NCBI RefSeq assembly: GCF_018729255.1
Contig: NZ_CP076061.1
Coordinates: forward strand, 1,426,001-1,490,000
DNA: 64,000 bases
DNA from: Cupriavidus sp. EM10
GTDB lineage: Bacteria; Pseudomonadota; Gammaproteobacteria; Burkholderiales; Burkholderiaceae
Direction: 5' to 3'
The notes beneath the pieces were generated by a model that made no database searches, was not told the DNA's origin, and saw nothing but the letters and a program-made list of their open reading frames with translations. The translations under genes and the position numbers were made by a program. Numbering within the stretch: the stretch's first letter is position 1; each line of letters begins with the position of its first letter. Below, piece by piece: positions 7,181 to 25,762 of this stretch.

Positions 7181-7240
7181 CGTATACGACAGGTATACGA
7201 AGGCCGCGCGACGGGCGTATACGTATACGCGTATACGCCC
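7181..7240. repeat. cluster of five GTATAC palindromes with hairpin
   Basis: GTATAC occurs at 7182, 7193, 7217, 7223 and 7231, four of the five within CGTATACG. Arms GGGCGTATAC (7213-7222) and GTATACGCCC (7231-7240) are exact reverse complements around an 8-base loop, so a stable hairpin can form. No T-run follows, so it is not a standard terminator for htrA. The function is unknown. Confidence 0.7.
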
Positions 7241-14038: not shown

Positions 14039-14308
14039 GTTTGGCGGCCTCGATGGCGGGTTGGCGATGACGTTGCGGGGCGTTTCGGTGTGGCTCGATA
14101 CAGTTCAGTGCAGTTCGGGCTGCAGCAGGGTCCGGCCATTGTAGCGGCGTGCAGGACGCATCGGACAGTGGGTTTCCGCACGGTTGTACGCGCCTGACAG
14201 TACGGGAATGCACCGGAATCGGGCGCGGGGCGCGCCGGATCTCGCCGGTTCTGGCATCATCGACCTGTTGGCACCTTGCCACTTTTCAGAATCGTCTTAG
14301 CCGCTGCA

Positions 14309-15154
14309 ATGACTGCTTCGCAACCGCGCGTGTCTGGCGCGCCTGCTTCACTCGATTTCGATTATTCCGCGCCGCTGGCCGACCAGGCGGCGCTGGCCAG
14401 TCTGGCCCGCGAATTCCACGCGGGCGGCTATATCGTGCTGCGCAACTTTGCCAGCGAGGCCACCTGCGCCGCGCTGGAGGCCGTGACGCGCCAGCATCTG
14501 GCGGCAGCCGTGCCGCCGGTGGAGTTCGAGGCCGACCTCGGATACCCCGGGGCACCGGCCACGCGCCAGGACGCCGGCGGCAATACGGTGCGACGACTGC
14601 GCCAGGCGTACGGGCGCGACGAGGCATTCCGACGCTGGGCCAGCCATCCGCAACTGGTGGCGACGGTCGAGGCGCTGCTGGGCGAGCCCGCGCGCCTGAC
14701 GCTGGCCCACCACAACTGCGTGATGACCAAGCATCCGCACTATGGGAGCCAGACCGGCTGGCATCGCGATACGCGCTACTGGTCGTTCGTGAAGCCGGAC
14801 CTGGTGACCGTGTGGCTGGCGCTGGGCGACGAGGACGAGCGCAACGGCGTGCTGCGCGTGATTCCGGGCTCGCATCGCGCAAAGCTCGATCCCGCGCAAC
14901 TGGACCCTGCCGAATTCCTTGTCGAGGCGCATCCGAACAGTCAGATGCTGCTGAAGGGGGCGATGCCGCTGGCCCTGCATCGCGGCGATGTGCTGTTCTT
15001 CGACAGCCGGTTGTTCCACGCGGCAGGCCGCAACGACTCCGAGGCCGTCAAGCTGTCGGTGGCGCTTGCCTACTTTGGCGCCAGCAACCGGCCGGTCGAC
15101 GGATCGCGTTCGGCCGAGTTCGGTAGTGTGGAGATGCCCCCGGCGGCGCTTTGA
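14309..15154 (+). CDS. phytanoyl-CoA dioxygenase (PhyH) family protein
   Basis: A 281-residue Fe(II)/2-oxoglutarate-dependent dioxygenase of the PhyH family. The iron ligands are the HxD pair in TGWHRDTRYW and the distal His in SRLFHAAGRND, and VLRVIPGSHR is the typical PhyH strand. Substrates in this family range from acyl-CoA to ectoine and small metabolites, so none is assigned. ATG at 14309 is chosen over a TTG eleven codons upstream; neither has a strong ribosome site. It is monocistronic and ends at a clear terminator. Confidence 0.9.
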   Translation: MTASQPRVSGAPASLDFDYSAPLADQAALASLAREFHAGGYIVLRNFASEATCAALEAVTRQHLAAAVPPVEFEADLGYPGAPATRQDAGGNTVRRLRQAYGRDEAFRRWASHPQLVATVEALLGEPARLTLAHHNCVMTKHPHYGSQTGWHRDTRYWSFVKPDLVTVWLALGDEDERNGVLRVIPGSHRAKLDPAQLDPAEFLVEAHPNSQMLLKGAMPLALHRGDVLFFDSRLFHAAGRNDSEAVKLSVALAYFGASNRPVDGSRSAEFGSVEMPPAAL

Positions 15155-15525: not shown

Positions 15526-16250
15526 TTAGGTGGCCGGCTGTGCGTCAACCGCTACTTCGGCGGCGTTCATCGACTCCACCGCCTTGGCCGCGCTGTAGAC
15601 GTGCCGGGTGGCCAGCAGCGATGCCAGGTCGGCGTCACCGTCGATCACGGCCTGGAGGATCTGGGCGTGCTCGTCCCAATTGAGCCGGGCGCGGTTCACG
15701 TTGGCCGGCGCGAACAGCAGCGCGGTGCGCTCGCGCAGCGACCGCATCATGTCCTGCAGCACGCTGTTGGCGGCGATATTGCCCAGCACCTCGTGAAAAC
15801 GCGAGTTCAGCTCGACAAAGCGCTCGGTCTGGCCGCTATTTACGGCATCGTTGCCTTCCTTGAGCACCTTTTCGAGTTCCTCGATCAGCGCCGGATCGCG
15901 ACGCTGGGCCGCCAGCTTGGCGTTGAGCCCTTCCAGCGTGGCACGCACTTCCACCATTTCCCGCGCGATATTGGGCGACAGCCGCGCCACCGACGCGCCG
16001 CGTCGCGGCTCGATGCGCACCAGCCCTTCGGCCGCCAGCGCGCGCAGCGCCTCGCGCACCGGAATGCGCGATACGCCCAGTTCCAGCGACAGCGTGTTTT
16101 CCACCAGGCGTTCGCCCTGTTCGTACTGGCCGCCCAGGATGCGTTGCCGCAGGGTGTCCGTGACCAGCGCGAACAGGGGGAATGCTGGGCACCCAGGCTT
16201 GCGGCCGGGGTGTCCGGACTCGGCTTCAGGGCAGCGGTGGCGTCGTTCAT
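15526..16250 (-). CDS. GntR-family regulator, FCD type (one frameshift)
   Basis: About 241 residues once restored. The N-terminal winged helix includes ENTLSLELGVSRIPVREALR followed by LAAEGLVRIEPRRGASVA, a classic GntR DNA-binding domain. The all-helical C-terminal FCD ligand domain runs from about residue 100, with metal-ligand-like histidines in NSRFHEVLG and ATRHVYSAA. The frame breaks at the G-run 16176-16180, where GAQHSP should continue with LFALVTDTL; one missing base restores it. It ends the operon-like row of oxygenase-locus genes, 109 bases after the reductase, with its own GTATAC palindrome at 16320-16325. It is the most likely repressor of that locus; FCD proteins usually sense small carboxylates. 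Confidence 0.9.
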
Positions 16251-16313
16251 GATCGGGATCGGCCGTCGGATATCGGTGATGGGCCGCGGTCGAAGGGCCG
16301 CGGCGTGAATGCC

Positions 16314-16331
16314 GCTATTGTATACCGTCAC
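16314..16331 (-). promoter_or_regulatory. candidate GntR operator upstream of gntR
   Basis: TATTGTATACCGTCAC contains GTATAC at 16320-16325. Read on the minus strand, GGTATACAATAGC also contains a good -10 (TACAAT) about 70 bases upstream of the gntR start. A repressor site over the -10 would give autoregulation. Confidence 0.5.
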
Positions 16332-16359
16332 CTCCTGGATGAAGACATAGGGTAGACAT

Positions 16360-17423
16360 CTACCGGCATGCCACCGGTACGATGTCCGGCCCGATCAGCT
16401 TGTTCGGCCTGCCTGGCGGCTCAGCCCCCGCGTGCTGGAACGTGAAGCCATCCGAATACAGGAACGGCGTCTGTGCGCCCAGCACCATGAATGTCTGCTT
16501 GGCGTCGTGGATCATGTTCGGCGATCCGCACAGGTAGATGGCGTGTTCCGACAGGTCGCCCAGATCGGCCGCCACGGCGTCGTGGACGTAGCCACGGCGA
16601 CCCTGCCAGCTGTCGTCGGCGCGTGACAGCACCGGCACGTACTGGAAGTCGTAGAGCCGTTCGCCCCAGGTGGCGATCTCGTCGTGCAGGTAGAGATCGG
16701 CGGCCGAGCGCATGCCCCAGTACAGCCAGACGGGGGGCAGTCCGGGTCATCCATCAGCGATTCCAGCATGCTCTTGATTGGCGCCAGGCCAGTGCCCGTG
16801 GCCACCATCAGCAGTGGCCGATAGTCTTCCTTGCGCAGGCTGAAATTGCCATGCGGCAGTTCCACTTCGAGCCGGTCTCCGGCGCGCAACTGCGGCAGGT
16901 GCGTCGATGTGAAGCGCCCGCCGGCGATCTGCCGCACGTGGAAGTCGACCGTGTTGCCATTCGGTGCCGATGCCATGGAGAAACTGCGATGCGTGCCATC
17001 GTCCAGCAGCACCTTCAGGTACTGGCCCGGCTCGTACACGAAGGGATCGCCGTCGGGCAGCGCCAGGCGCAGGTGCAGCACGTCGGGGCCGAGCGGCGCC
17101 ACCGACAGCACGGTGGCCGTGGCGCGCCGGGCCGGCACTTGCGGCCCCGCCGCGCGTGCGGTGCTGATGACCAGGTCGCCATCGGGCCGCGCCTGGCAAG
17201 CCAGCGCAAAGCCGTCGGCGTGCTCTTCCTCGGTCAGTCCCATCGGAAAATCCTCGTACGAGACCGACCCCTGCACCACGCGCATGCGACAGGTGCCGCA
17301 GCCGCCGAACGTGCATTCGTGCGCCAGTTCCACGCCGCAGCGCAGCGCGGCGTCCAGCACCGATTCACCGGGCGCCACCATGAATACCTGTTGCGTTTCC
17401 GCAATCTCGACCCGATGGGACAT
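16360..17423 (-). CDS. ferredoxin-NAD(P)H oxidoreductase with N-terminal 2Fe-2S domain (one frameshift)
   Basis: About 354 residues once restored. The N-terminal plant-type 2Fe-2S domain has cysteines in HECTFGGCGTCRMR and LACQAR, followed by a flavin-binding barrel (HRSFSMASAP, Arg-x-Tyr/Phe-Ser type) and an NAD(P) domain (MVATGTGLAPIKSM, later IYLCGSPNMI). This is the architecture of electron-transfer components such as BenC or phenol-hydroxylase reductase. The break at the G-run 16732-16737 is repaired by one base, joining DDPDCPP to VWLYWGMRSAADLYL. It lies 15 bases after the GlcG-like gene in the oxygenase operon, so it most likely feeds electrons to the diiron oxidase through the ferredoxins encoded at 23122-24124. 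Confidence 0.9.
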
Positions 17424-17438
17424 GACGATTCCCCTTGC

Positions 17439-17918
17439 TTACTTCTTGATGTCGGCCTGCGCCAGCACGGTCAGGTCTTCGGCGGCCAGCAGGTCGCGCA
17501 GCGCTTCCAGCGCGGCCACGCCGCAGGCGGTGTCCTGCTCGCCATTGCCGCCCGACAGGCCGACGCCGCCGATCACTTCGCCATTGACCACGATCGGGTA
17601 GCCGCCCACGAACACGGCGAACTTGCCTTCGAAGCTCCACTGGATGCCGAACGCTTCATTGCCGGGCAGTGCGGGGCCGTTCGGCGCGGTGTTGAACAGA
17701 TGCGTGGATCGCTTGTGGCCGGCCGCCGTGAACGCCTTGTTCCACGCAATCTGCGGGCCGGTGATGCGCGCACCGTCCATGCGTTCGAGCAGCAGCGGAT
17801 AGCCGCCGTCGTCGACGATGCACACCGATTCCAGCACGCCGATTTCCTCGGCTTTGCGCACGGCCGCGGCCACCATGTGGCGGGCTTCTCTCAGTTCAAG
17901 CTTGATGGCTTTCTTCAT
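17439..17918 (-). CDS. GlcG/HbpS-like heme-binding family protein
   Basis: A 159-residue protein of the GlcG/HbpS (haem-degrading, DUF336) family. It starts MKKAIKLELREARHMVAAAV and ends with the family's Gly-rich segment GEVIGGVGLSGGNGEQDTAC. Family members bind heme or cobalamin-like cofactors, or are found beside catabolic oxidases without a settled role. The ribosome site AAGGAAAC precedes the ATG. It lies between the aldehyde dehydrogenase (44 bases) and the reductase (15 bases), so it is probably co-transcribed. A role as an accessory or chaperone for the oxidase is inference only. Confidence 0.85.
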   Translation of the reverse strand: MKKAIKLELREARHMVAAAVRKAEEIGVLESVCIVDDGGYPLLLERMDGARITGPQIAWNKAFTAAGHKRSTHLFNTAPNGPALPGNEAFGIQWSFEGKFAVFVGGYPIVVNGEVIGGVGLSGGNGEQDTACGVAALEALRDLLAAEDLTVLAQADIKK

Positions 17919-17962
17919 CGTTGTTTCCTTAATTTTTATGCGGATGCCTTGGCTACCTGGAC

Positions 17963-19411
17963 TCAGACGCCCTGATAGACCGTCTTGATCTGCGTGTAGA
18001 ACTCCAGCCCGGCCCGGCCCGATTCGCGGAACGTCGATGTGCTGGAGCGCTTCAGCCCGCCGAACGGCGCGTTGACCAGGTTGCCCGTGGTGGTGCGGTT
18101 GATCTTGACGGTGCCCGATTCGATGTCGCGGGCAAAGTCGTGCATGTAGCGCGGATTGCGCGTGGCGATGGCGGCGGACAGGCCGTATTCGGTGTCGTTG
18201 GCGCGGGCGATGGCGTCGGCGTAGCTGTCCACTTCGATGATCGCCAGCACCGGCCCGAAAATCTCCTCGCGGGCGATGCGCATCGCTTGCGTGACGTCCG
18301 TGAATACGGCCGGCGCCACGTAGTAGCCATTGGCGAAATCGCCATCGGTCAGCTGCTGGCCGCCGCACAGCAGCGTGGCTTCCTGCTTGCCGGCCTCGAT
18401 GTAGCCCAGCACGGTCTGCAGCTGCTTGCGCGTGGCCAGCGGGCCCAGGTCCATGCCCGGCGTCATGCCGCTGCCGATCTTGAGCGTCTTGACCTTGGCC
18501 ACGAGCTTGTCGGTGAAGGCCTGCCTGACCTCGCGCATCACCAGGATGCGGCTGGTGCCGGTGCACGCCTGGCCCGACAGCGACAGGCCGCCCTTGATGG
18601 CCAGGTCCACGGCGCGATCCAGGTCGGCGTCTTCCATCACGATCAGCGGATTCTTGCCGCCCAGTTCCATCTGCGTGCGCGTGGTCATCGGCACGGACTT
18701 GTGGATCTGTTCGCCGGCCTGCGTCGATCCGGTAAACGACACCGCGCGCACGGCACGCGATTCGACGATGGTCGGACCCACTTCGCCAGCGCTGCCGGTC
18801 ACGAAGTTGAGCACGCCCTTGGGGATGCCGGCCTTCACGAAGGCCTCGGCCAGGCGATAGCCCGACAGCGGCGCGTCGGACGACGGCTTGAATACCACGG
18901 TGTTGCCGGTGATCAGCGCCGGCGCGATCTTGCGGGCCGGAATCGACACCGGGAAGTTCCACGGCGAGATCACCGTGACCACGCCCAGCGGCTCGCGCAG
19001 GCTGTAGACCAGCATGTCGGGGTCGTCGTTCGGATAGCTTTCGCCGCTGAAGGTCTGGCCTTCCACGGCGTAGAAGCGCAGCGTCTGGGCCGAACGCATG
19101 ATTTCGTCGCGCGCCAGGTTCAGCGACTTGCCTTCCTCGCGCGTCAGTTCGGCGGCGATGGCATCGGCATTGGCTTCCAGATGGGCGGCGGCGTCGTTGA
19201 GAATCTTGGCGCGCTTGCCGATTGGCGTCTTCTTCCAGCCGTCGAAGGCGGCGGCTGCGGCGGCCACGGCGGCGGCGGCATCGCGGGCGTCGGACGCTGC
19301 GTGGCGGCTGACGATGTCGCGCGTGTCGGCGGGGTTGATGTTGTCGAGCGTGCGGCCGCTTGCGCTATCGCACCATTCGCCGTCGATGTAGTTGCGGTAC
19401 GTCTCGGTCAT
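17963..19411 (-). CDS. NAD(P)-dependent aldehyde dehydrogenase
   Basis: A 482-residue aldehyde dehydrogenase of full family length. Conserved parts are ISPWNFPVSIPARKIAPAL (cofactor and oxyanion region), SFTGSTQAG, general base Glu in QMELGGKNPLI, catalytic Cys in GQACTGTSRILV and EEIFGPVLAI. The N-terminus MTETYRNYIDGEWC resembles succinate-semialdehyde and betaine-aldehyde dehydrogenase groups, so a semialdehyde or amino-aldehyde is plausible. It follows the HDO gene by 95 bases and precedes the GlcG-like gene by 44. In this context it probably oxidises an aldehyde released by the oxygenase. Confidence 0.93.
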   Translation of the reverse strand: MTETYRNYIDGEWCDSASGRTLDNINPADTRDIVSRHAASDARDAAAAVAAAAAAFDGWKKTPIGKRAKILNDAAAHLEANADAIAAELTREEGKSLNLARDEIMRSAQTLRFYAVEGQTFSGESYPNDDPDMLVYSLREPLGVVTVISPWNFPVSIPARKIAPALITGNTVVFKPSSDAPLSGYRLAEAFVKAGIPKGVLNFVTGSAGEVGPTIVESRAVRAVSFTGSTQAGEQIHKSVPMTTRTQMELGGKNPLIVMEDADLDRAVDLAIKGGLSLSGQACTGTSRILVMREVRQAFTDKLVAKVKTLKIGSGMTPGMDLGPLATRKQLQTVLGYIEAGKQEATLLCGGQQLTDGDFANGYYVAPAVFTDVTQAMRIAREEIFGPVLAIIEVDSYADAIARANDTEYGLSAAIATRNPRYMHDFARDIESGTVKINRTTTGNLVNAPFGGLKRSSTSTFRESGRAGLEFYTQIKTVYQGV

Positions 19412-19506
19412 CTTGCGGGGGCCTTGTTCGGGTTCGGAGAGACGCCGGGCCTGCGTCGGGTATGGCGCGGGCCCGGCTTGCCGGAGTCTGTAGCGAGGCG
19501 CCCGGC

Positions 19507-20226
19507 TCAGGCGGCCGCGGCTTCCGGCTTGGTGTCGACGTAGTCGTAGTACAGCGCGGTCGTGTACAGCAGGCGCATCTGGGCGCCGATCTCGCAGATC
19601 TTCAGGCAGCGCTGCTGCAGCTCGGGCGTGTTGGCGTGCTCCAGCACGATCTGGTAGCCGCGCTCGCCGTGGATTTCGTCGGACACGATGTGCAGGTCGA
19701 AGAATTCCACCTCTTCGTCGGTGAAGCCGTACTTCTCGCGCAGCGTCGGGGTTTGCTTGCGGTAGATCGACGGCACCTGCGATTCCAGGCCCACCACCAG
19801 GCCGGCCACGGCCACCACCGGGTCTTCGCGCATGGCCACGGCGTAGCACCAGCTCTGCAGGCCACGCGTGGTGGGCGACATGTTGTCCGGGCTCACCACG
19901 CGTTCGCGCGTGGTGCCGCAGGCCTCGGCAAAGCGGATCAGCAGGTCGGTGTGACGATCGCCGCCGATTTCTTCCTCGTACATGTTGGCCAGCAGGAAGT
20001 CCTTGGCCTCGGTCATGTGGTCCGGCGTGCGGGCATAGATGTAGCCCAGGTAGTCGGCGAACGGGCCCACGTAGTGATAGTGGTTCTCGGCCCAGCGCGC
20101 CAGATGCTCGCGGCTCAGCGTGCCGCTGGCCCATGCCTTGCTGAACGGCGCCTGGTTGGCGCTCTTGCCTTTAATGGCGTTTTCCAGGGCGGCGCGGAAT
20201 TCTTCACGGTTCATCAGTTCGGCCAT
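19507..20226 (-). CDS. heme-oxygenase-like diiron oxidase (HDO; TenA/PqqC fold)
   Basis: A 239-residue all-helical protein of the TenA/PqqC/CADD fold. The six metal ligands of the HDO group can be placed with correct spacing: E85 and H92 in YEEEIGGDRH, E148 in VGLESQVP, then H179, D183 and H186 in DLHIVSDEIHGERG. Chlamydial CADD has E81, H88, E142, H174, D178 and H181. PqqC (cofactor-free) and TenA thiaminases lack this set. HDOs include UndA, BesC and SznF, which use O2 for decarboxylation, C-C cleavage or N-oxygenation. Start at 20226 has the ribosome site AGGAGTC. It is followed by aldehyde dehydrogenase, GlcG-like and reductase genes, and two ferredoxins lie in the divergent unit, giving a complete electron chain. 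The substrate is unknown. Confidence 0.85.
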   Translation of the reverse strand: MAELMNREEFRAALENAIKGKSANQAPFSKAWASGTLSREHLARWAENHYHYVGPFADYLGYIYARTPDHMTEAKDFLLANMYEEEIGGDRHTDLLIRFAEACGTTRERVVSPDNMSPTTRGLQSWCYAVAMREDPVVAVAGLVVGLESQVPSIYRKQTPTLREKYGFTDEEVEFFDLHIVSDEIHGERGYQIVLEHANTPELQQRCLKICEIGAQMRLLYTTALYYDYVDTKPEAAAA

Positions 20227-20264
20227 TTTGGGGACTCCTGTTTGTCTGGCGTTCGGGGTGGAAA

Positions 20265-20287
20265 TGAATTTGTATACTTTCTACAAC
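20265..20287 (-). promoter_or_regulatory. candidate GntR operator upstream of the HDO gene
   Basis: GTATAC at 20272-20277, about 46 bases before the HDO start. On the minus strand the block is TTGTAGAAAGTATACAAATT, which shares TGTAGA-N2-GTATAC-N2-ATT with the site in front of the cyclodeaminase-family gene. It makes the HDO-ALDH-GlcG-reductase row a likely separate transcript. Confidence 0.6.
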
Positions 20288-20341
20288 GTCGTTCAGGCGG
20301 TAAAAAGCCGCATGCAGGCGGCGACTTCAGGTGGTTCGGAA

Positions 20342-21271
20342 TCAGGCGGCAGCGGCCTGCGCAGAATTGATGCGTTGCCAGGCCACGCCGGCCAGTGCCA
20401 CGTCTTCCAGGCCGACACCGACCGACTTGTAGATGACGATGTCGTCGGCATGACGGCGGGCGGCATGGGTGCCATTCAGTACATCGGCCAGTTCGGCGAT
20501 CTTGTCGTCGGGCAGCACGGTTTTGTCCGCCAGCACCAGGTCGCCGGCTTCGCGCAGCGACTGCGGCCGCCATTCGACCACCACGGCGGCGGCGCGCGAC
20601 AGCAGCGTGTCGTCGAGTTCGCGGGTGTGCGGCAGGCTGGAACCGATGGCGGCCACAAAGGTGCCGGGCTTGACGACGGCGCCCGAGAACAGCGGCGTGG
20701 TGGAGCGCGAGGCGGTCACGATGATGTCCGCATCGGCAGCGGCTTCCTCGGGCTGCGCAAAAGTGACCGGAATGCCGCACTGCGCGGCCATGTGCTCGGC
20801 CGCCCCGGCATCGGCATACGGATCGCAGACCAGGATGCGCTTGAGCGGCAATGCGGCCGACAGCTGCAGCGCATGCTGCACGCCCTGCGTGCCCGCGCCG
20901 AACAGCGCCAGCGTTCCGGCGTCGGGGCGCGCCAATTGGCGGGCGGCCAGCACCGTGCAGGCCGCCGTGCGCAGCCGCGTGATGGCGCCTGCGTCGAACG
21001 AGGCCAGCGGCCGTCCGTCAACCGTCGAAAACAGCAGGATGACAAAAGAGAACTGACCGGCGATGGTTGTATACACCTTGGCGCCGGCCACCTGCTGGGC
21101 CGGAATGACCGCGCCCAGCGTGGAGAGCTTCACGCCACCGGCTTCCGTGCGGATCCGTTCCTGCATGGCGGCCTCGCCGCGCCCGAAGCTCTGGAAGGCT
21201 TCGAGCATCGCGGCCTGGGCGTCGGCTGCCGTGACGTGGCGGTCGATCATCGCATCGGTGACATGGAGCAT
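20342..21271 (-). CDS. ornithine cyclodeaminase / mu-crystallin family protein
   Basis: A 309-residue NAD(P)-binding protein of the ornithine cyclodeaminase family. The Rossmann motif is LALFGAGTQGVQHALQ; VTASRSTTPLFSG and FVAAIGSSLPHTRELDD are further family signatures. The family also includes alanine dehydrogenases, ketimine reductases and lysine cyclodeaminases, so the reaction (oxidative deamination or imine reduction) cannot be fixed. Start at 21271 (MLHVTDAMIDRH) gives the usual family length; the upstream in-frame extension lacks similarity. It is divergent from the permease gene and 115 bases upstream of the HDO gene, with operator-like palindromes on both sides. Confidence 0.9.
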   Translation of the reverse strand: MLHVTDAMIDRHVTAADAQAAMLEAFQSFGRGEAAMQERIRTEAGGVKLSTLGAVIPAQQVAGAKVYTTIAGQFSFVILLFSTVDGRPLASFDAGAITRLRTAACTVLAARQLARPDAGTLALFGAGTQGVQHALQLSAALPLKRILVCDPYADAGAAEHMAAQCGIPVTFAQPEEAAADADIIVTASRSTTPLFSGAVVKPGTFVAAIGSSLPHTRELDDTLLSRAAAVVVEWRPQSLREAGDLVLADKTVLPDDKIAELADVLNGTHAARRHADDIVIYKSVGVGLEDVALAGVAWQRINSAQAAAA

Positions 21272-21291
21272 GGCGAGGGCGTCTTGTTGTG

Positions 21292-21314
21292 TAATCGGTA
21301 TACAGTCTACACAT
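21292..21314 (-). promoter_or_regulatory. candidate GntR operator upstream of the cyclodeaminase-family gene
   Basis: GTATAC at 21298-21303. Minus strand: TGTGTAGACTGTATACCGATT, sharing TGTAGA-N2-GTATAC-N2-ATT with the HDO site at 20265-20287. It lies about 27 bases upstream of the start codon. Confidence 0.6.
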
Positions 21315-21468
21315 AGTTCCGAAAAATCCAGAGGGTTTTCCCAGGGCATGCGCTGTGTCCGGGGTGGTGCGAAATGCGCGCAAACCGTGCGCCGTAGCCA
21401 TTCTTCGCACCGATCGGGTGATTTCCCTAAGTTTCGTCGTTTTCGCTTGTTTCGGGCCACCTACGGGA

Positions 21469-21485
21469 TATAGTATACAAAATAG
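21469..21485 (+). promoter_or_regulatory. candidate GntR operator upstream of the permease
   Basis: ATAGTATACAAAATAGC has GTATAC at 21473-21478, about 65 bases before the permease start. GTATACAA followed by ATAGC is also seen at the gntR site on its minus strand. The TATACA inside it could serve as -10. Confidence 0.55.
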
Positions 21486-21542
21486 CAGCACCACAGAATT
21501 CTTATACCGCCCCCACAAGGGCCTCCAGGAAAGGGGAGCCTC

Positions 21543-23081
21543 ATGCAACAAGCTGTTCAGATTGGCCTGGCACATTGGGTGTACCTGCTAGGCGTGGCCG
21601 TGATCGTGTTGACAATGATCCTGCGGGCCAACGTCGTGGTGCCGTCGATCCTTGGCACCTTTCTCGTGATCCTGGCCATCACGGGCAGTCCGATCAGCGC
21701 GCTGGGCGGCATCTTCTCGGCCAGCCTGGTGGCGGCCAAGGAGCTGTTCAACATCTTCCTGGTCATCGCGTTCATGACGGCGCTGCTCAATGCGCTGAAG
21801 ACACTGCGATCCGATATCCGCATGGTCGAGCCGTTCCGCGTGGTGATGAAGAACGGCCATAGCGCCTATTTCATCCTGGCCGGCATTACCTATGTGATCT
21901 CGCTGTTCTTCTGGCCCACGCCGGCCGTGCCGCTGGTGTCGGCCATCCTGCTACCGGCCGCCATCGCCGCCGGCCTGCCGCCGCTGGCCGGGGCCATGGC
22001 CATTGCCATCGCCGGCCAGGGCATGGCGCTGTCGTCGGACTACGTGATCGGCGTGGCGCCCGGTATCAGCGCCAAGGCGGCCGGCGCGGCGGTCAGTGCC
22101 GCCGTGGTGGCCGATCGCGCGCTGATCCTGTCGATCATCACCGGCGCCATTGCGCTGTCGCTGGCCTACCTGTCGATGCGCCGGCATATCGTGCCGGCCA
22201 ACGGCGCCCTGCTGGATCGCTGGCAGGCGCGCGCCACCGGGGCCGACACCGCCGTCGAGGCTACCGGCACGTTCGACAAGGCCGAGATCGCGCGCGGCAC
22301 CTCGCACGAAGAGCCGCTGGCCACCGACGCGAACATCGAGCAGAGCCTGGCCATGGTGGCCCGACGTCGCGTGAAGTGGTCCAAGTTCTTCGCCGTGCTG
22401 ACACCGCTGGCGTTTATCTGCGTGGTGACGCTGATGGTGCTGCCGAAAATCTCGTCGGGCATGCCCGACCTGAAGGGCGGTGCCGCCGCCGCGTTGGTGG
22501 GCGGCGTGGCCGCGCTGCTGATGATGCTGGCCACGCTGGCCGCCGAAGGCCCGCGCCGCATGCTCGACGTGTGCCCCGACCACATCACCGACGGCTTCGT
22601 GTTCGCGTTCAAGGCCATGGGATCGGTGCTGCCGATCGCAGGCTTCTTCTTCGTGGGCGCGGGCGAAACCGCCGCGCAGATCCTGGGCGTGGATGCCGGC
22701 AAGGCGCCGAGCCTGCTGTTCGAACTGATCCAGGCGTACCAGCACATGATTCCGGACAACCACGTGCTGGTGGCGTTCGGCGTGCTGCTGGTGGGCATGA
22801 TCACCGGTATCGACGGATCGGGCTTTGCCGGCCTGCCGCTGACCGGCACGCTGGCCGGTGCGCTGGGCCCCGTGGTGGGATTCGACTCGGCCACGCTGGC
22901 GGCCGTGGGCCAGATGGGCGCGGTGTGGACGGGCGGCGGCACGCTGATCGCCTGGTCGTCGCTGATCGCCGTGGCCGGGTTTGCGCGCGTGCCGGTGCTC
23001 GACGCGGTGCGGGCGTTGCTGCTGCCCGTGCTGGCCGGGCTGTTCGTGTCGACGATCTGCGCCATGTTCCTGTGGCGCTGA
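21543..23081 (+). CDS. multi-pass permease, ion-transporter-superfamily-like
   Basis: A 512-residue protein with about 12 or more hydrophobic segments and a polar loop near residues 235-275. Two inverted-repeat-like re-entrant regions are suggested by LPAAIAAGLPPLAGAMAIAI and, near the C-terminus, GIDGSGFAGLPLTGTLAGAL, as in GntP, CitM or DcuC-type transporters. I cannot place it in a named family with certainty. The ribosome site AGGAAAGGGGAG precedes the ATG. It heads the plus-strand unit permease, ferredoxin, unknown 104-residue protein, ferredoxin. It most probably imports the substrate of the divergent oxygenase operon. Confidence 0.78.
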   Translation: MQQAVQIGLAHWVYLLGVAVIVLTMILRANVVVPSILGTFLVILAITGSPISALGGIFSASLVAAKELFNIFLVIAFMTALLNALKTLRSDIRMVEPFRVVMKNGHSAYFILAGITYVISLFFWPTPAVPLVSAILLPAAIAAGLPPLAGAMAIAIAGQGMALSSDYVIGVAPGISAKAAGAAVSAAVVADRALILSIITGAIALSLAYLSMRRHIVPANGALLDRWQARATGADTAVEATGTFDKAEIARGTSHEEPLATDANIEQSLAMVARRRVKWSKFFAVLTPLAFICVVTLMVLPKISSGMPDLKGGAAAALVGGVAALLMMLATLAAEGPRRMLDVCPDHITDGFVFAFKAMGSVLPIAGFFFVGAGETAAQILGVDAGKAPSLLFELIQAYQHMIPDNHVLVAFGVLLVGMITGIDGSGFAGLPLTGTLAGALGPVVGFDSATLAAVGQMGAVWTGGGTLIAWSSLIAVAGFARVPVLDAVRALLLPVLAGLFVSTICAMFLWR

Positions 23082-23121
23082 GCGAGCCTCTCGAATTCTT
23101 TTCAGATTTAAAGAAATAGCT

Positions 23122-23436
23122 ATGCCGAAAGTCACCTTCCATAAGAACGGCCAGGTCTTCGTCGACGAGGTCAAGCCTGAGACCAATCTCGTCGTGCGCG
23201 CCGGCATCAAGCAGTTTCCGTATCCGAACCTGCGCTACGAATGCGGCATGGGCAAGTGCTCGAAGTGCGCGTGCAAGGTGCTGGCCGGCGCCGAACACCT
23301 GCCGCCGCCCAACTGGAAAGAGAAGAAGCAACTGGGCGACCGGCTGGACCAGGGCTTCCGGCTGGCCTGCCAGATCTGGCTGACGCACGACATCGAGCTG
23401 GAGCAGCCAGAAACGGTGGTCGCGGCATGTTCGTGA
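23122..23436 (+). CDS. 2Fe-2S ferredoxin, first of pair
   Basis: A 104-residue plant-type 2Fe-2S ferredoxin. The cluster ligands are in YECGMGKCSKCACK (C-x4-C-x2-C) and RLACQIW. Start at 23122 gives MPKVTFHKNGQVF and follows the permease by 40 bases. The segment HLPPPNWKEKKQLGDRLDQG between the third and fourth Cys is typical of ferredoxins serving oxygenases. Its last 10 bases overlap the next gene. It probably carries electrons from the reductase encoded at 16360-17423 to the HDO. Confidence 0.93.
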   Translation: MPKVTFHKNGQVFVDEVKPETNLVVRAGIKQFPYPNLRYECGMGKCSKCACKVLAGAEHLPPPNWKEKKQLGDRLDQGFRLACQIWLTHDIELEQPETVVAACS

Positions 23437-23741
23437 TCCTGACCAGCAAGCCGGGCCAGTTCCGCACCGAGGCCGTGCCCGGCGTGGAGCCGCGCGAAAC
23501 GTGGGAATACCTGTTCTACGGCCGGCCCAAGGCGATTTTCGTGATTGCCGAACTGATGGAAACGCAGAAACCGGTGAAGGTGCGCGTGATCGAGGAATCA
23601 GCAGCGCCCGACGCCGACCCCGTGATCAACCACGTGCCGACCAAATTCCTGGAGCGCTTTGACACGCTCGACGCTGCCCACGACGCGCTGCAGAAGCTGG
23701 CGCACTTCGGCAGCATGGATCTTTCGATAAGGAAACAATGA
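23427..23741 (+). CDS. unknown 104-residue protein between two ferredoxins
   Basis: I do not recognise a family. The protein is soluble, starts MFVILTSKPGQFRTEAVPG, has an alternating beta-rich centre (WEYLFYGRPKAIFVIAELM, then VKVRVIEES) and a C-terminal helical part (FDTLDAAHDALQKLAHFGS). There are no cysteines, signal peptide or membrane segment. Translational coupling is tight: it overlaps the upstream ferredoxin by 10 bases and the downstream one by 4 (ATGA). Such coupling suggests a fixed stoichiometry with the ferredoxins, perhaps as a small subunit or coupling protein of the oxygenase system. Confidence 0.8.
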   Translation: MFVILTSKPGQFRTEAVPGVEPRETWEYLFYGRPKAIFVIAELMETQKPVKVRVIEESAAPDADPVINHVPTKFLERFDTLDAAHDALQKLAHFGSMDLSIRKQ

Positions 23742-24124
23742 TGCGGGCCGACACCGAAGCCGATGCCACCGTGACCGAAGACACCCAACCCGCCACCGAC
23801 AGCGGCGCCGCGCCGCAGACGCGCACCGTCGAGATCACGTTCCTGACCAACAGCGGCAAGACCGTGACCGCCCCGGAAAACAGCAATCTGCTGCGCGTAT
23901 CGCTGCGCGAGCAGGGCGGCATCCCGTTCAAATGCGGCGGCGGCATCTGCGGCACCTGCAAGTGCCGGATCGAACAGGGCCTGGAGCACACCGACGCCGT
24001 CAAGCCCAAGGAGCGCAAGCACCTGAACGACGACGACCTGCGCGCCGGCTATCGCATGGCCTGCCAGACATTCATCAAGGGCGACGTGGCGGTGTCGTGG
24101 GAACCGAGGACGGGGCCGCGCTGA
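23738..24124 (+). CDS. 2Fe-2S ferredoxin, second of pair
   Basis: A 128-residue protein. About 30 acidic, low-complexity residues precede a plant-type 2Fe-2S domain with ligands in FKCGGGICGTCKCR and RMACQTFI. It differs from the first ferredoxin, so the two are not recent duplicates and may have different partners or potentials. It starts in an ATGA overlap with the unknown protein and ends 4 bases before the convergent sorB. Confidence 0.93.
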   Translation: MMRADTEADATVTEDTQPATDSGAAPQTRTVEITFLTNSGKTVTAPENSNLLRVSLREQGGIPFKCGGGICGTCKCRIEQGLEHTDAVKPKERKHLNDDDLRAGYRMACQTFIKGDVAVSWEPRTGPR

Positions 24125-24128
24125 GGGG

Positions 24129-24500
24129 CTATTTGGCTGCCGAATTCGACACCCCCTGCGCCTGCTCCGCCCCATAAGTCTTCACCAGATAATCCACGAT
24201 TGCCGGAATGTCCTCGTCCTTGAGCGGTGCGCCGAATGGCTTCTTCATCTTCTTGACCGTGGCATCCCAGTAGGCGCGGGTCGAGGTCGACGGCTGCGTG
24301 GATACGTACTGCGCCGAATGGCAGATCATGCAGTTCTGCAGCGCGAGGTTATAGCCGGGTAACGTGCTGGGTTTGTAGCTGGCGGTCTCCTGGGGCAGCT
24401 TGATTTCCAGCGGGCGGGCATTGGACGCCGCCGATGCCGTACCCGATATGGCGCCGGATGCGCAGGCGATGGCCAGCATCACGATGTGTTGCAGATTCAT
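24129..24500 (-). CDS. sorB: sulfite dehydrogenase cytochrome c subunit SorB
   Basis: A 123-residue periplasmic monoheme cytochrome c. A signal peptide ends near SGTASAAS, the heme motif is QNCMICHSAQY, and the distal Met is probably in WDATVKKMKKPFG. It lies 14 bases downstream of the molybdenum subunit gene, the SorA-SorB arrangement of periplasmic sulfite:cytochrome c oxidoreductase. It accepts electrons from SorA and passes them to the respiratory chain. Confidence 0.9.
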   Translation of the reverse strand: MNLQHIVMLAIACASGAISGTASAASNARPLEIKLPQETASYKPSTLPGYNLALQNCMICHSAQYVSTQPSTSTRAYWDATVKKMKKPFGAPLKDEDIPAIVDYLVKTYGAEQAQGVSNSAAK

Positions 24501-24514
24501 TTTTGGCCCCCGTC

Positions 24515-25762
24515 TCAAACCACCAGCACGCGCGTGGATTCCACGACGTTCCGCATATAGCCGGCCGGATTCCATGTGGCCGTCAGCGGCTGGATTTCTC
24601 CGGACCGGGTTCTGGCGCGCGCCCGCAAATCGAATTCTCCTTTTCTTTGCGGACGGAATGGAATGCTCCATTCGCGGAACGAGTAGCGGCCCAGATCCTT
24701 GCCCAGTTCGGCCGGGCGCCAGCTGGCGCCGCCATCGTCCGAAAATGCGACATCGGCAATGCCCTGGCCGCCATCGAATGCGATGCCCTTTATCACGGCG
24801 GGTTGTCCGGACTGGATAAAGCTGCCCGGCATATGGCTGGTGATAAACGACCGCACATTGAACCGGCCGATGGGCACCGTACTGGCCGGTGCCGTGCCCG
24901 GTGCCACGCAGGCGCAATCATTGGCGGGAATACGATACGCGGGGTTCATCCAGAAGCCTTCGAAAGGCTTGTCGAGGACTTCGATATGCGCAAGGTGCTT
25001 GACCCAGTAAGTGCCGTAGTGACCCGGCACCACCAGCCGTAGCGGATAACCGTTCAGCATCGGCAAGTCCTTGCCGTTCATGGCCCAGGCCAGCATGACT
25101 TCGCCATCCATGGCATGGTCCAGCGGCAACGCCTTGACGAAGTCGGGGCCATTTTCAAGCGGCGGGCGGTCAAGCCCGTCGAAGCTGATCTGTACCGCGC
25201 CGGGTTTGATGCCGGCCTTTTCCAGCACGGTGCGCAGCGGGATGCCAGTCCAGCGCGCATTGCCCATCGCGCCATTGCCAAGCTGGCCGCCATTGACGCG
25301 CGGCGAGAAAAAGCCCCGGCCATTTCCGGAACACTGGTTGACCGCGACGAGTTCCACGGGGGCGCCGAGCTTGCGCAAATCCTGCAGGCTCAGTGACACG
25401 GGATTTGCCACATGGCCGTCGATCTTCAGCCGATAGGTCGATGCGTCGATCGATGTGGGAATGCCGCTCCAGTGATACCGGACGAAAAACGCGTCGTTCG
25501 GCGTAATCACATTTTCGCCAAATACCTCGAATGGGGTTTCGAGTTGCGGCGGGCGGTTGGTCAGCAGGATCAGCGGCCGTTTTTGCGGAAACGCCACCAG
25601 CTCGCGGTGACCATTCTCGAACGGCAAGTCGGTGGTACTGGCGGCGGCAAATGCGCGCGTTGCGGCAAATCCAAGCGATGCCTGCAGTGTCAAGGCGGCG
25701 CCACCCTTCAGCACGCCGCGACGCCGTTGATCGATTTCGCCTCTTGTGGGTTTCCTGGCCAT
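24515..25762 (-). CDS. sorA: sulfite dehydrogenase molybdopterin subunit SorA
   Basis: A 415-residue sulfite-oxidase-family enzyme that oxidises sulfite to sulfate in the periplasm. A twin-arginine signal (DQRRRGVLKGGAALTLQAS) starts the protein. The molybdenum Cys is in AVNQCSGNGRG, and the oxidoreductase core is followed by the Mo-co dimerisation domain (from about residue 300, FITSHMPGSFI). It is the first gene of sorAB. The 244 bases between it and the IclR gene hold no recognisable site. The family includes SoxCD-like enzymes, but the single cytochrome partner and size favour SorA. Confidence 0.92.
   Translation of the reverse strand: MARKPTRGEIDQRRRGVLKGGAALTLQASLGFAATRAFAAASTTDLPFENGHRELVAFPQKRPLILLTNRPPQLETPFEVFGENVITPNDAFFVRYHWSGIPTSIDASTYRLKIDGHVANPVSLSLQDLRKLGAPVELVAVNQCSGNGRGFFSPRVNGGQLGNGAMGNARWTGIPLRTVLEKAGIKPGAVQISFDGLDRPPLENGPDFVKALPLDHAMDGEVMLAWAMNGKDLPMLNGYPLRLVVPGHYGTYWVKHLAHIEVLDKPFEGFWMNPAYRIPANDCACVAPGTAPASTVPIGRFNVRSFITSHMPGSFIQSGQPAVIKGIAFDGGQGIADVAFSDDGGASWRPAELGKDLGRYSFREWSIPFRPQRKGEFDLRARARTRSGEIQPLTATWNPAGYMRNVVESTRVLVV

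Follow-up and report, generated by a model that had tools for sequence, protein, structure and literature searches.

A heme-oxygenase-like diiron oxidase encoded with ferredoxins, a reductase and a co-occurring small protein in a probable catabolic locus of Cupriavidus sp. EM10

What does a heme-oxygenase-like diiron oxidase (HDO) do when it is encoded together with a permease, an aldehyde dehydrogenase, a regulator and its own electron carriers? Validated HDOs number about a dozen, and the available parts of a 2026 review present them as natural-product biosynthesis enzymes with labile clusters (PMC13108848). The question is raised by a locus of Cupriavidus sp. EM10, which occupies positions 15526 to 24124 of a 64,000-nucleotide stretch of contig NZ_CP076061.1 (here called the window). 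The gene set of this locus is real, conserved and, as far as searches of the open-licence literature go, undescribed: they turned up no published set with the same genes. On the basis of its sequence, we consider it fairly probable that the locus is under regulation and serves the catabolism of a small organic anion, with a multicomponent HDO oxygenase as the key enzyme.

The host genome (6.66 Mb, four contigs) carries the locus on contig 2 in the form of two divergent units. The minus-strand unit encodes an ornithine-cyclodeaminase (OCD) family protein, the HDO, an aldehyde dehydrogenase (ALDH), a DUF336 (HbpS/GlcG-like) protein, a BenC-type reductase and a GntR regulator. The plus-strand unit encodes a permease, a 2Fe-2S ferredoxin (FD1), a small protein designated UNK and a second 2Fe-2S ferredoxin (FD2). 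These neighbors had been listed in an initial annotation of the same DNA, and Pfam and NCBIfam searches bore out the ALDH, the HbpS/GlcG-like protein, the OCD family member, the FCD-type GntR and the two Fer2 ferredoxins; the permease and the 103-residue UNK were also confirmed as neighbors. In the nearest named loci, those of Ralstonia sp. 25mfcol4.1 and Cupriavidus sp. U2, the HDO is 100% identical, and the laboratory strain Cupriavidus metallidurans CH34 has a copy with 99% identity.

Identity of the diiron oxidase

The HDO (19507 to 20226, minus strand; 239 amino acids) matches PF14518 (Haem_oxygenas_2; 132 bits), and its Pfam matches comprise this family and PF03070 only, with no ferritin-fold diiron hydroxylase subunits. 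The gene and its six predicted metal ligands, E85, H92, E148, H179, D183 and H186, lie exactly where the initial annotation had placed them. All six residues are invariant in the 95 aligned rows of the HDO clade (at least 75% HDO identity; some rows represent one gene fetched twice). All printed rows of remote HDOs and of PabS (5/5 for the latter) have the same set, which is missing from four PqqC-type rows; the PqqC label of rows L123 and L124 was assigned from their residues and from their position beside the annotated PqqC of L126.

The best Protein Data Bank (PDB) matches of the HDO are the para-aminobenzoate (pABA) synthases CADD/PabS, and its best NCBIfam model is TIGR04305, which it matches with 98 bits against a cutoff of 200. 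The self-sacrificing synthases CADD and NePabS share the six-ligand pattern with the window HDO but differ in having a sacrificial Tyr (Tyr27/25) and Lys (Lys152/159), as described in the available parts of the source (PMC11965152). In the HDO clade, Ser29 and Gln158 stand in their place, and Trp45 replaces another essential Tyr (95/95 rows), whereas Tyr, Tyr and Lys occupy the three positions in 5/5 PabS rows. A tree was constructed from 43 of the 127 collected rows (L119 to L122 and L125 gave no usable tblastn match and are absent). The 21 system rows formed a single clade with support of 100/100, and PabS and PqqC fell into other clades; the initial annotation had left it to such a tree to decide whether the HDO stands apart. 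CADD/PabS was rejected as the identity of the protein on the grounds of a score below the TIGR04305 cutoff, the replaced sacrificial residues and the separate clade. PqqC was likewise rejected (53 of 240 bits, different active-site residues and a separate clade), as was thiaminase II TenA (15.7 bits against the TIGR04306 cutoff of 130). PqqC and TenA are similar to the window HDO at the family level (PF03070), but their work on pyrroloquinoline quinone and thiazole is described as metal independent in the portion of the review available (PMC13108848), and the PqqC rows are without the ligands. On sequence evidence (its ligands, the replaced sacrificial residues and the tree), the 239-residue protein is an HDO; it is neither PqqC nor TenA nor a pABA synthase. 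The database names given to the window HDO include PqqC and TenA.

Within the tree, the window HDO groups with copies from Variovorax, Hydrogenophaga, Verticiella and Oxalobacteraceae (support 93/97, below the star threshold) and is not placed with the C. necator and C. basilensis copies, a placement that suggests horizontal transfer. Two HDO copies per locus were observed in L028 (5900 to 10700), G673 (contig 2) and G652 (contig 15; L093). The L028 copies are identical rows in the tree, one located beside ALDH-DUF336-reductase and the other beside FD1-UNK-FD2. The more remote HDOs of L105 to L111 (28 to 37% identity) had no FD1, UNK, FD2 or DUF336 match in tblastn searches with these known queries and were therefore rejected as members of the same system; on reading of their open reading frames (ORFs), their neighbors look like isochorismatases, racemases, SDRs and UbiD-like genes. 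In L111, three such remote paralogues sit close together in a single genome (3221 to 9530, a span of ~6.3 kb).

Conserved gene set, electron chain and regulation

Conservation was assessed in the best 80 of 495 confirmed relatives, of which 69 loci had at least 8 kb on both sides; 11 short loci were dropped, and weaker matches were removed by identity and coverage thresholds before genes were counted. Because these 80 loci are the closest relatives, the fractions describe the HDO clade only, and many of the loci come from two genera. The initial annotation had made its proposal depend on whether the genes are kept together in other genomes, and they are: HDO, FD1, UNK, FD2, DUF336 and GntR were each found in 69/69 loci, and all nine core genes occurred together in 61. 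ALDH was detected in 66 loci, the two reductase pieces in 65 and 66, the permease in 63 and OCD in 42. The loci fall into 20 arrangements that differ in order, orientation or content, and the order FD1-UNK-FD2 is constant in all 20. The median identity to the window was 92% for HDO, 82% for DUF336, 78% for both FD1 and ALDH, 77% for the permease, 74% for FD2, 66% for GntR, 58% for the N-terminal piece of the reductase and 49% for UNK. The set is shared among soil bacteria, and the source taxa include Cupriavidus, Achromobacter, Paraburkholderia, Variovorax, Noviherbaspirillum and others, as well as Azospirillum, Belnapia and Crenalkalicoccus. One variant locus, L092 (5660 to 12758), contains a GMC oxidoreductase and a separate flavin reductase.

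FD1 (23122 to 23436, plus strand) and FD2 (23738 to 24124, plus strand) both match PF00111; the CX4CX2C...C motif of FD1 is retained in 78/78 aligned homologues and the Cys motif of FD2 in 77/77. The BenC-type reductase (16360 to 17423, minus strand; Cys motif in 72/74 aligned homologues) matched Fer2, FAD_binding_6 and NAD_binding_1 when its two pieces were searched apart, and in NCBIfam the N-terminal piece scores best against BenC, at 149 bits under a cutoff of 430. Electrons from NAD(P)H would reach the dimetal site of the HDO by way of this reductase and the two ferredoxins, enabling repeated turnover. In the window genome, frames are broken between 15900 and 17423: the reductase has no single open frame and is split into 16512 to 17423 and 16360 to 16713, and the GntR N terminus is out of frame. 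Compared with each of four close relatives (L002 to L005), the window is one base short near 16180 (GntR) and near 16430 and 16735 (reductase). In L002, both frames are intact (reductase, 334 amino acids; GntR, 268 amino acids). As the three breaks lie within 600 bp, strain-specific decay and a local sequencing error are both possible.

The initial annotation's proposal of an HDO with a dedicated electron chain, permease, ALDH and regulator is supported by these sequences. It had also stated that no HDO was known to have a dedicated ferredoxin pair and reductase in its gene cluster. That does not stand for the reductase, for which MboA/MboB of 2026 provides one precedent, being called possibly the first characterized dedicated HDO-redox partner pair in the available parts of PMC13185094. 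In this mangotoxin system, as in the locus, a 3-His/3-carboxylate HDO and a dedicated NAD(P)H-flavin-2Fe-2S reductase are encoded in one cluster, but the enzyme is a biosynthetic tripeptide acetylenase, the cluster comprises six mbo genes, and those parts of the source mention no ferredoxin pair or small partner (PMC13185094). No HDO with a ferredoxin pair and a co-occurring small partner was found in searches of the open-licence literature.

The FCD-type regulator GntR (15526 to 16257, minus strand; ORF by start codon, 15526 to 16104) has its FCD and GntR domains on 15529 to 16104. The window has four copies of the 8-mer TTGTATAC, where chance would give 0.14, and all of them are within the locus. 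Three are operator-like, upstream of the genes for GntR (16318 to 16325, plus strand), HDO (20270 to 20277, plus strand) and the permease (21473 to 21480, minus strand), and the fourth is inside the OCD gene. A looser operator-like sequence, GTATACAGTCTAC (21298 to 21310, plus strand), which was read by eye and has no chance estimate, is located just upstream of OCD. Among 83 loci, 64 have TTGTATAC in the 200 bp that precede the HDO gene and 19 do not, including L074, L076 and L092; of the 167 copies in 1,615 kb, 68 fall within the 16.6 kb of HDO-upstream sequence of these loci. The remote locus L090, with HDO, DUF336 and GntR only, also has the full palindrome TTGTATACAA upstream of its HDO gene. 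Because of the operator-like sites before the GntR, HDO and permease genes (and, loosely, OCD), the enrichment upstream of HDO and the L090 palindrome, both units probably belong to one regulon. We infer that GntR is the binder of TTGTATAC-type sites, through which it would repress the GntR, HDO, OCD and permease promoters.

Two further features of the window were noted. A PhyH-family oxygenase gene (14276 to 15151, plus strand) adjoins GntR and has high identity in the closest Cupriavidus loci. Outside the HDO locus, five GTATAC hexamers are clustered in 55 bases (7182 to 7236).

The small protein UNK

UNK (23430 to 23741, plus strand; 103 amino acids), encoded between FD1 and FD2, was named but not singled out in the initial annotation, and in our view it is the most informative part of the locus. 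It has no match in Pfam (E value of at most 0.001) or NCBIfam and thus no MmoB/DmpM-family match. Its fold is predicted with confidence (pLDDT, 91.5), and comparison of this prediction with the PDB gave no clear match. Because 25 of 43 aligned sequences are free of cysteines and none has more than three, UNK is, by its residues, not a 2Fe-2S ferredoxin. The UNK homologues P0125, P0140 and P0148 carry the database name ferredoxin, despite belonging to a family without ferredoxin cysteines.

The HDO (E value of at most 1e-20) was found in 61 of 299 genomes of the family, and UNK (E value of at most 1e-6) was found in the identical 61. In all of these, the two genes share a contig and are at most 8.1 kb apart, measured from start to start. 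In the class to which G287 belongs, 11 of 337 genomes had an HDO match, and UNK was present only in G287 itself (HDO identity, 88%); the HDOs of the remaining ten are 30 to 48% identical and occur without UNK.

Bacterial multicomponent monooxygenases such as MMO, phenol hydroxylase and T4MO consist of an oxygenase, a ferredoxin, a reductase and a small separate protein. The locus resembles them in having these four kinds of component but differs in that the hydroxylase there has a ferritin fold and the oxygenase here is an HDO, and UNK has no match to MmoB/DmpM. A small protein that is tied to one oxygenase clade and encoded between its two ferredoxins has an effector-like profile, and its co-occurrence and gene position make UNK a tentative candidate for the effector or coupling protein of the HDO. 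As such, it would bind the HDO and gate or couple O2 activation in the manner of MmoB/DmpM-type effectors, with no detectable sequence relation to them. The HDOs studied thus far are said to require no protein effector in the accessible portion of the review (PMC13108848).

UNK may instead be an assembly or scaffold protein that, for example, joins the two ferredoxins or loads iron into a labile HDO site, in which case the oxygenase would still be catabolic. The position of the UNK gene between the ferredoxin genes in all 20 arrangements is consistent with this role, as are the labile HDO metal sites described in the parts of the review at hand (PMC13108848). However, gene order links UNK to the ferredoxin genes and is silent on its binding partner, and neither sequence nor fold comparison connected it to a chaperone or scaffold. 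We regard this second role as plausible, if somewhat doubtful.

Probable catabolic role and substrate

The permease (21543 to 23081, plus strand) has no Pfam match. Its modeled fold is of the ion-transporter-superfamily type (TRAP-M/DASS/ArsB/NaS1-like), with an isethionate TRAP transporter as the top Foldseek match, and uptake of an organic anion is probable. The HDO would cleave the imported anion oxidatively, releasing an aldehyde that the ALDH (17963 to 19411, minus strand; PF00171, 550 bits) would convert to an acid. Among NCBIfam models, this ALDH scores best against alpha-ketoglutaric semialdehyde dehydrogenase, with 564 bits under a cutoff of 770. The DUF336 protein (17439 to 17918, minus strand; PF03928, 115 bits), HbpS-GlcG-like, is a candidate aldehyde- or iron-binding partner that may bind or sense the aldehyde or handle iron; EfgA, NahX and a cobalamin adenosyltransferase chain are among its relatives of known structure. 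EfgA, a formaldehyde sensor, belongs to the same DUF336 family but is described without a conserved genomic context in the available parts of its source (PMC8153426), whereas the DUF336 protein of the locus is present in 69/69 loci. The cyclodeaminase step that the initial annotation had included was not upheld. The OCD/mu-crystallin family gene (20342 to 21271, minus strand, start codon chosen manually; PF02423, 160 bits) was rejected as a core or necessary step in view of its presence in just 42/69 loci; the Achromobacter-type arrangement, which covers 21 loci, showed no OCD gene, and we treat it as accessory.

Catabolic loci usually show a permease, a GntR-FCD regulator, an ALDH, variable hydrolases and reshuffling. 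The hydrolase genes near 30/69 loci would agree with catabolism but could simply be flanking genes. From this gene context, the locus probably degrades an organic acid.

Several observations weigh against a multicomponent catabolic system of this kind. The window's own reductase and GntR genes have broken frames. ALDH was undetected in 3/69 loci, the N-terminal part of the reductase in 4/69 and the permease in 6/69, and other genes may therefore fill those roles there. L090 (HDO identity, 45 to 48%) keeps HDO, DUF336 and GntR and has no FD1, UNK, FD2 or ALDH match in 19.9 kb, so related HDO chemistry may not need these four. L092 (HDO identity, 76%) has HDO, FD1, UNK and FD2 with no DUF336, GntR, OCD or permease match, and its ALDH is a different one (33%). 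The conservation of UNK (median, 49%) is far below that of the HDO (median, 92%). Moreover, the two could co-occur because they are inherited together, and co-occurrence alone does not demonstrate contact.

As to the substrate, there is an even chance, in our estimate, that it is a sulfur-free carboxylate or amino compound that nearby hydrolases free from an amide or ester. An amidase is encoded near 20/69 loci, an isochorismatase-type hydrolase near 8 and a gamma-glutamyltransferase-type enzyme near 7 (30 loci in all); Caballeronia has an annotated alpha/beta hydrolase, and L092 has, by reading, a similar-looking ORF. Characterized HDOs act chiefly on fatty and amino acids, according to the review as available (PMC13108848). 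However, the hydrolases vary by lineage, are ~1.5 to 9.4 kb distant and may be flanking genes, 39/69 loci have none of the three types nearby, and a frequent TauE gene is left unexplained.

It is this TauE gene that bears on an organosulfonate substrate, from which the HDO would cleave the C-S bond to give an aldehyde and sulfite, the latter to be exported by TauE/SafE or oxidized by a sulfite dehydrogenase. A TauE/SafE-family gene is within 5 kb of the HDO in 50/69 loci, compared with 8 TauE match rows in the whole window genome; yet TauE proteins are a broad group, and the window genome has no TauE match at the HDO locus. The sulfite dehydrogenase SorA (24132 to 25762, minus strand; NF052245, 671 bits against a cutoff of 600) adjoins FD2 in the window, is also above the curated cutoff beside one Achromobacter locus and was found in 19/69 loci. 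An NMT1-like ABC binding protein in 8/69 loci and the isethionate match of the permease point the same way. Among the 36 HDO-bearing Cupriavidus genomes common to the HDO and SorA searches (20 further genomes of the SorA search fall outside this comparison), however, 25 have SorA, in only 4 of these is it near the HDO, and 11 have no SorA match; in addition, the amidase-type and other hydrolases of 30/69 loci suggest that the precursor is an amide or ester. A sulfonate was dropped as the preferred substrate on these Cupriavidus counts and is kept as an unlikely rival. The 19 loci with SorA near the HDO include 15 from Achromobacter. A weak cytochrome c match lies beside SorA in the window, and a cytochrome-c-like gene is found likewise in Achromobacter.

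That the locus serves biosynthesis or detoxification rather than nutrition is improbable, since the 2026 review, in its available parts, presents HDOs as biosynthetic enzymes (PMC13108848) but the permease in 63/69 loci, the GntR-FCD regulator, the ALDH, the variable hydrolases and the frequent reshuffling form the pattern of a catabolic locus.

For the regulated catabolic locus that we favor, an HDO that is kept (median identity, 92%) with a ferredoxin pair, a reductase and a co-occurring UNK makes both the degraded compound and control by a partner protein directly testable. Dedicated partner systems of this kind also bear on the question of how HDOs with a labile cluster could achieve multiple turnovers. 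It is conceivable, though rather doubtful, that the five components (HDO, UNK, two ferredoxins and the reductase) constitute a catabolic HDO system and include a protein effector for an HDO, each the first of its kind. If this is true, the heme-oxygenase fold would here support a reinvented version of the bacterial multicomponent monooxygenase plan, and a new family of small proteins would play the role of MmoB/DmpM.

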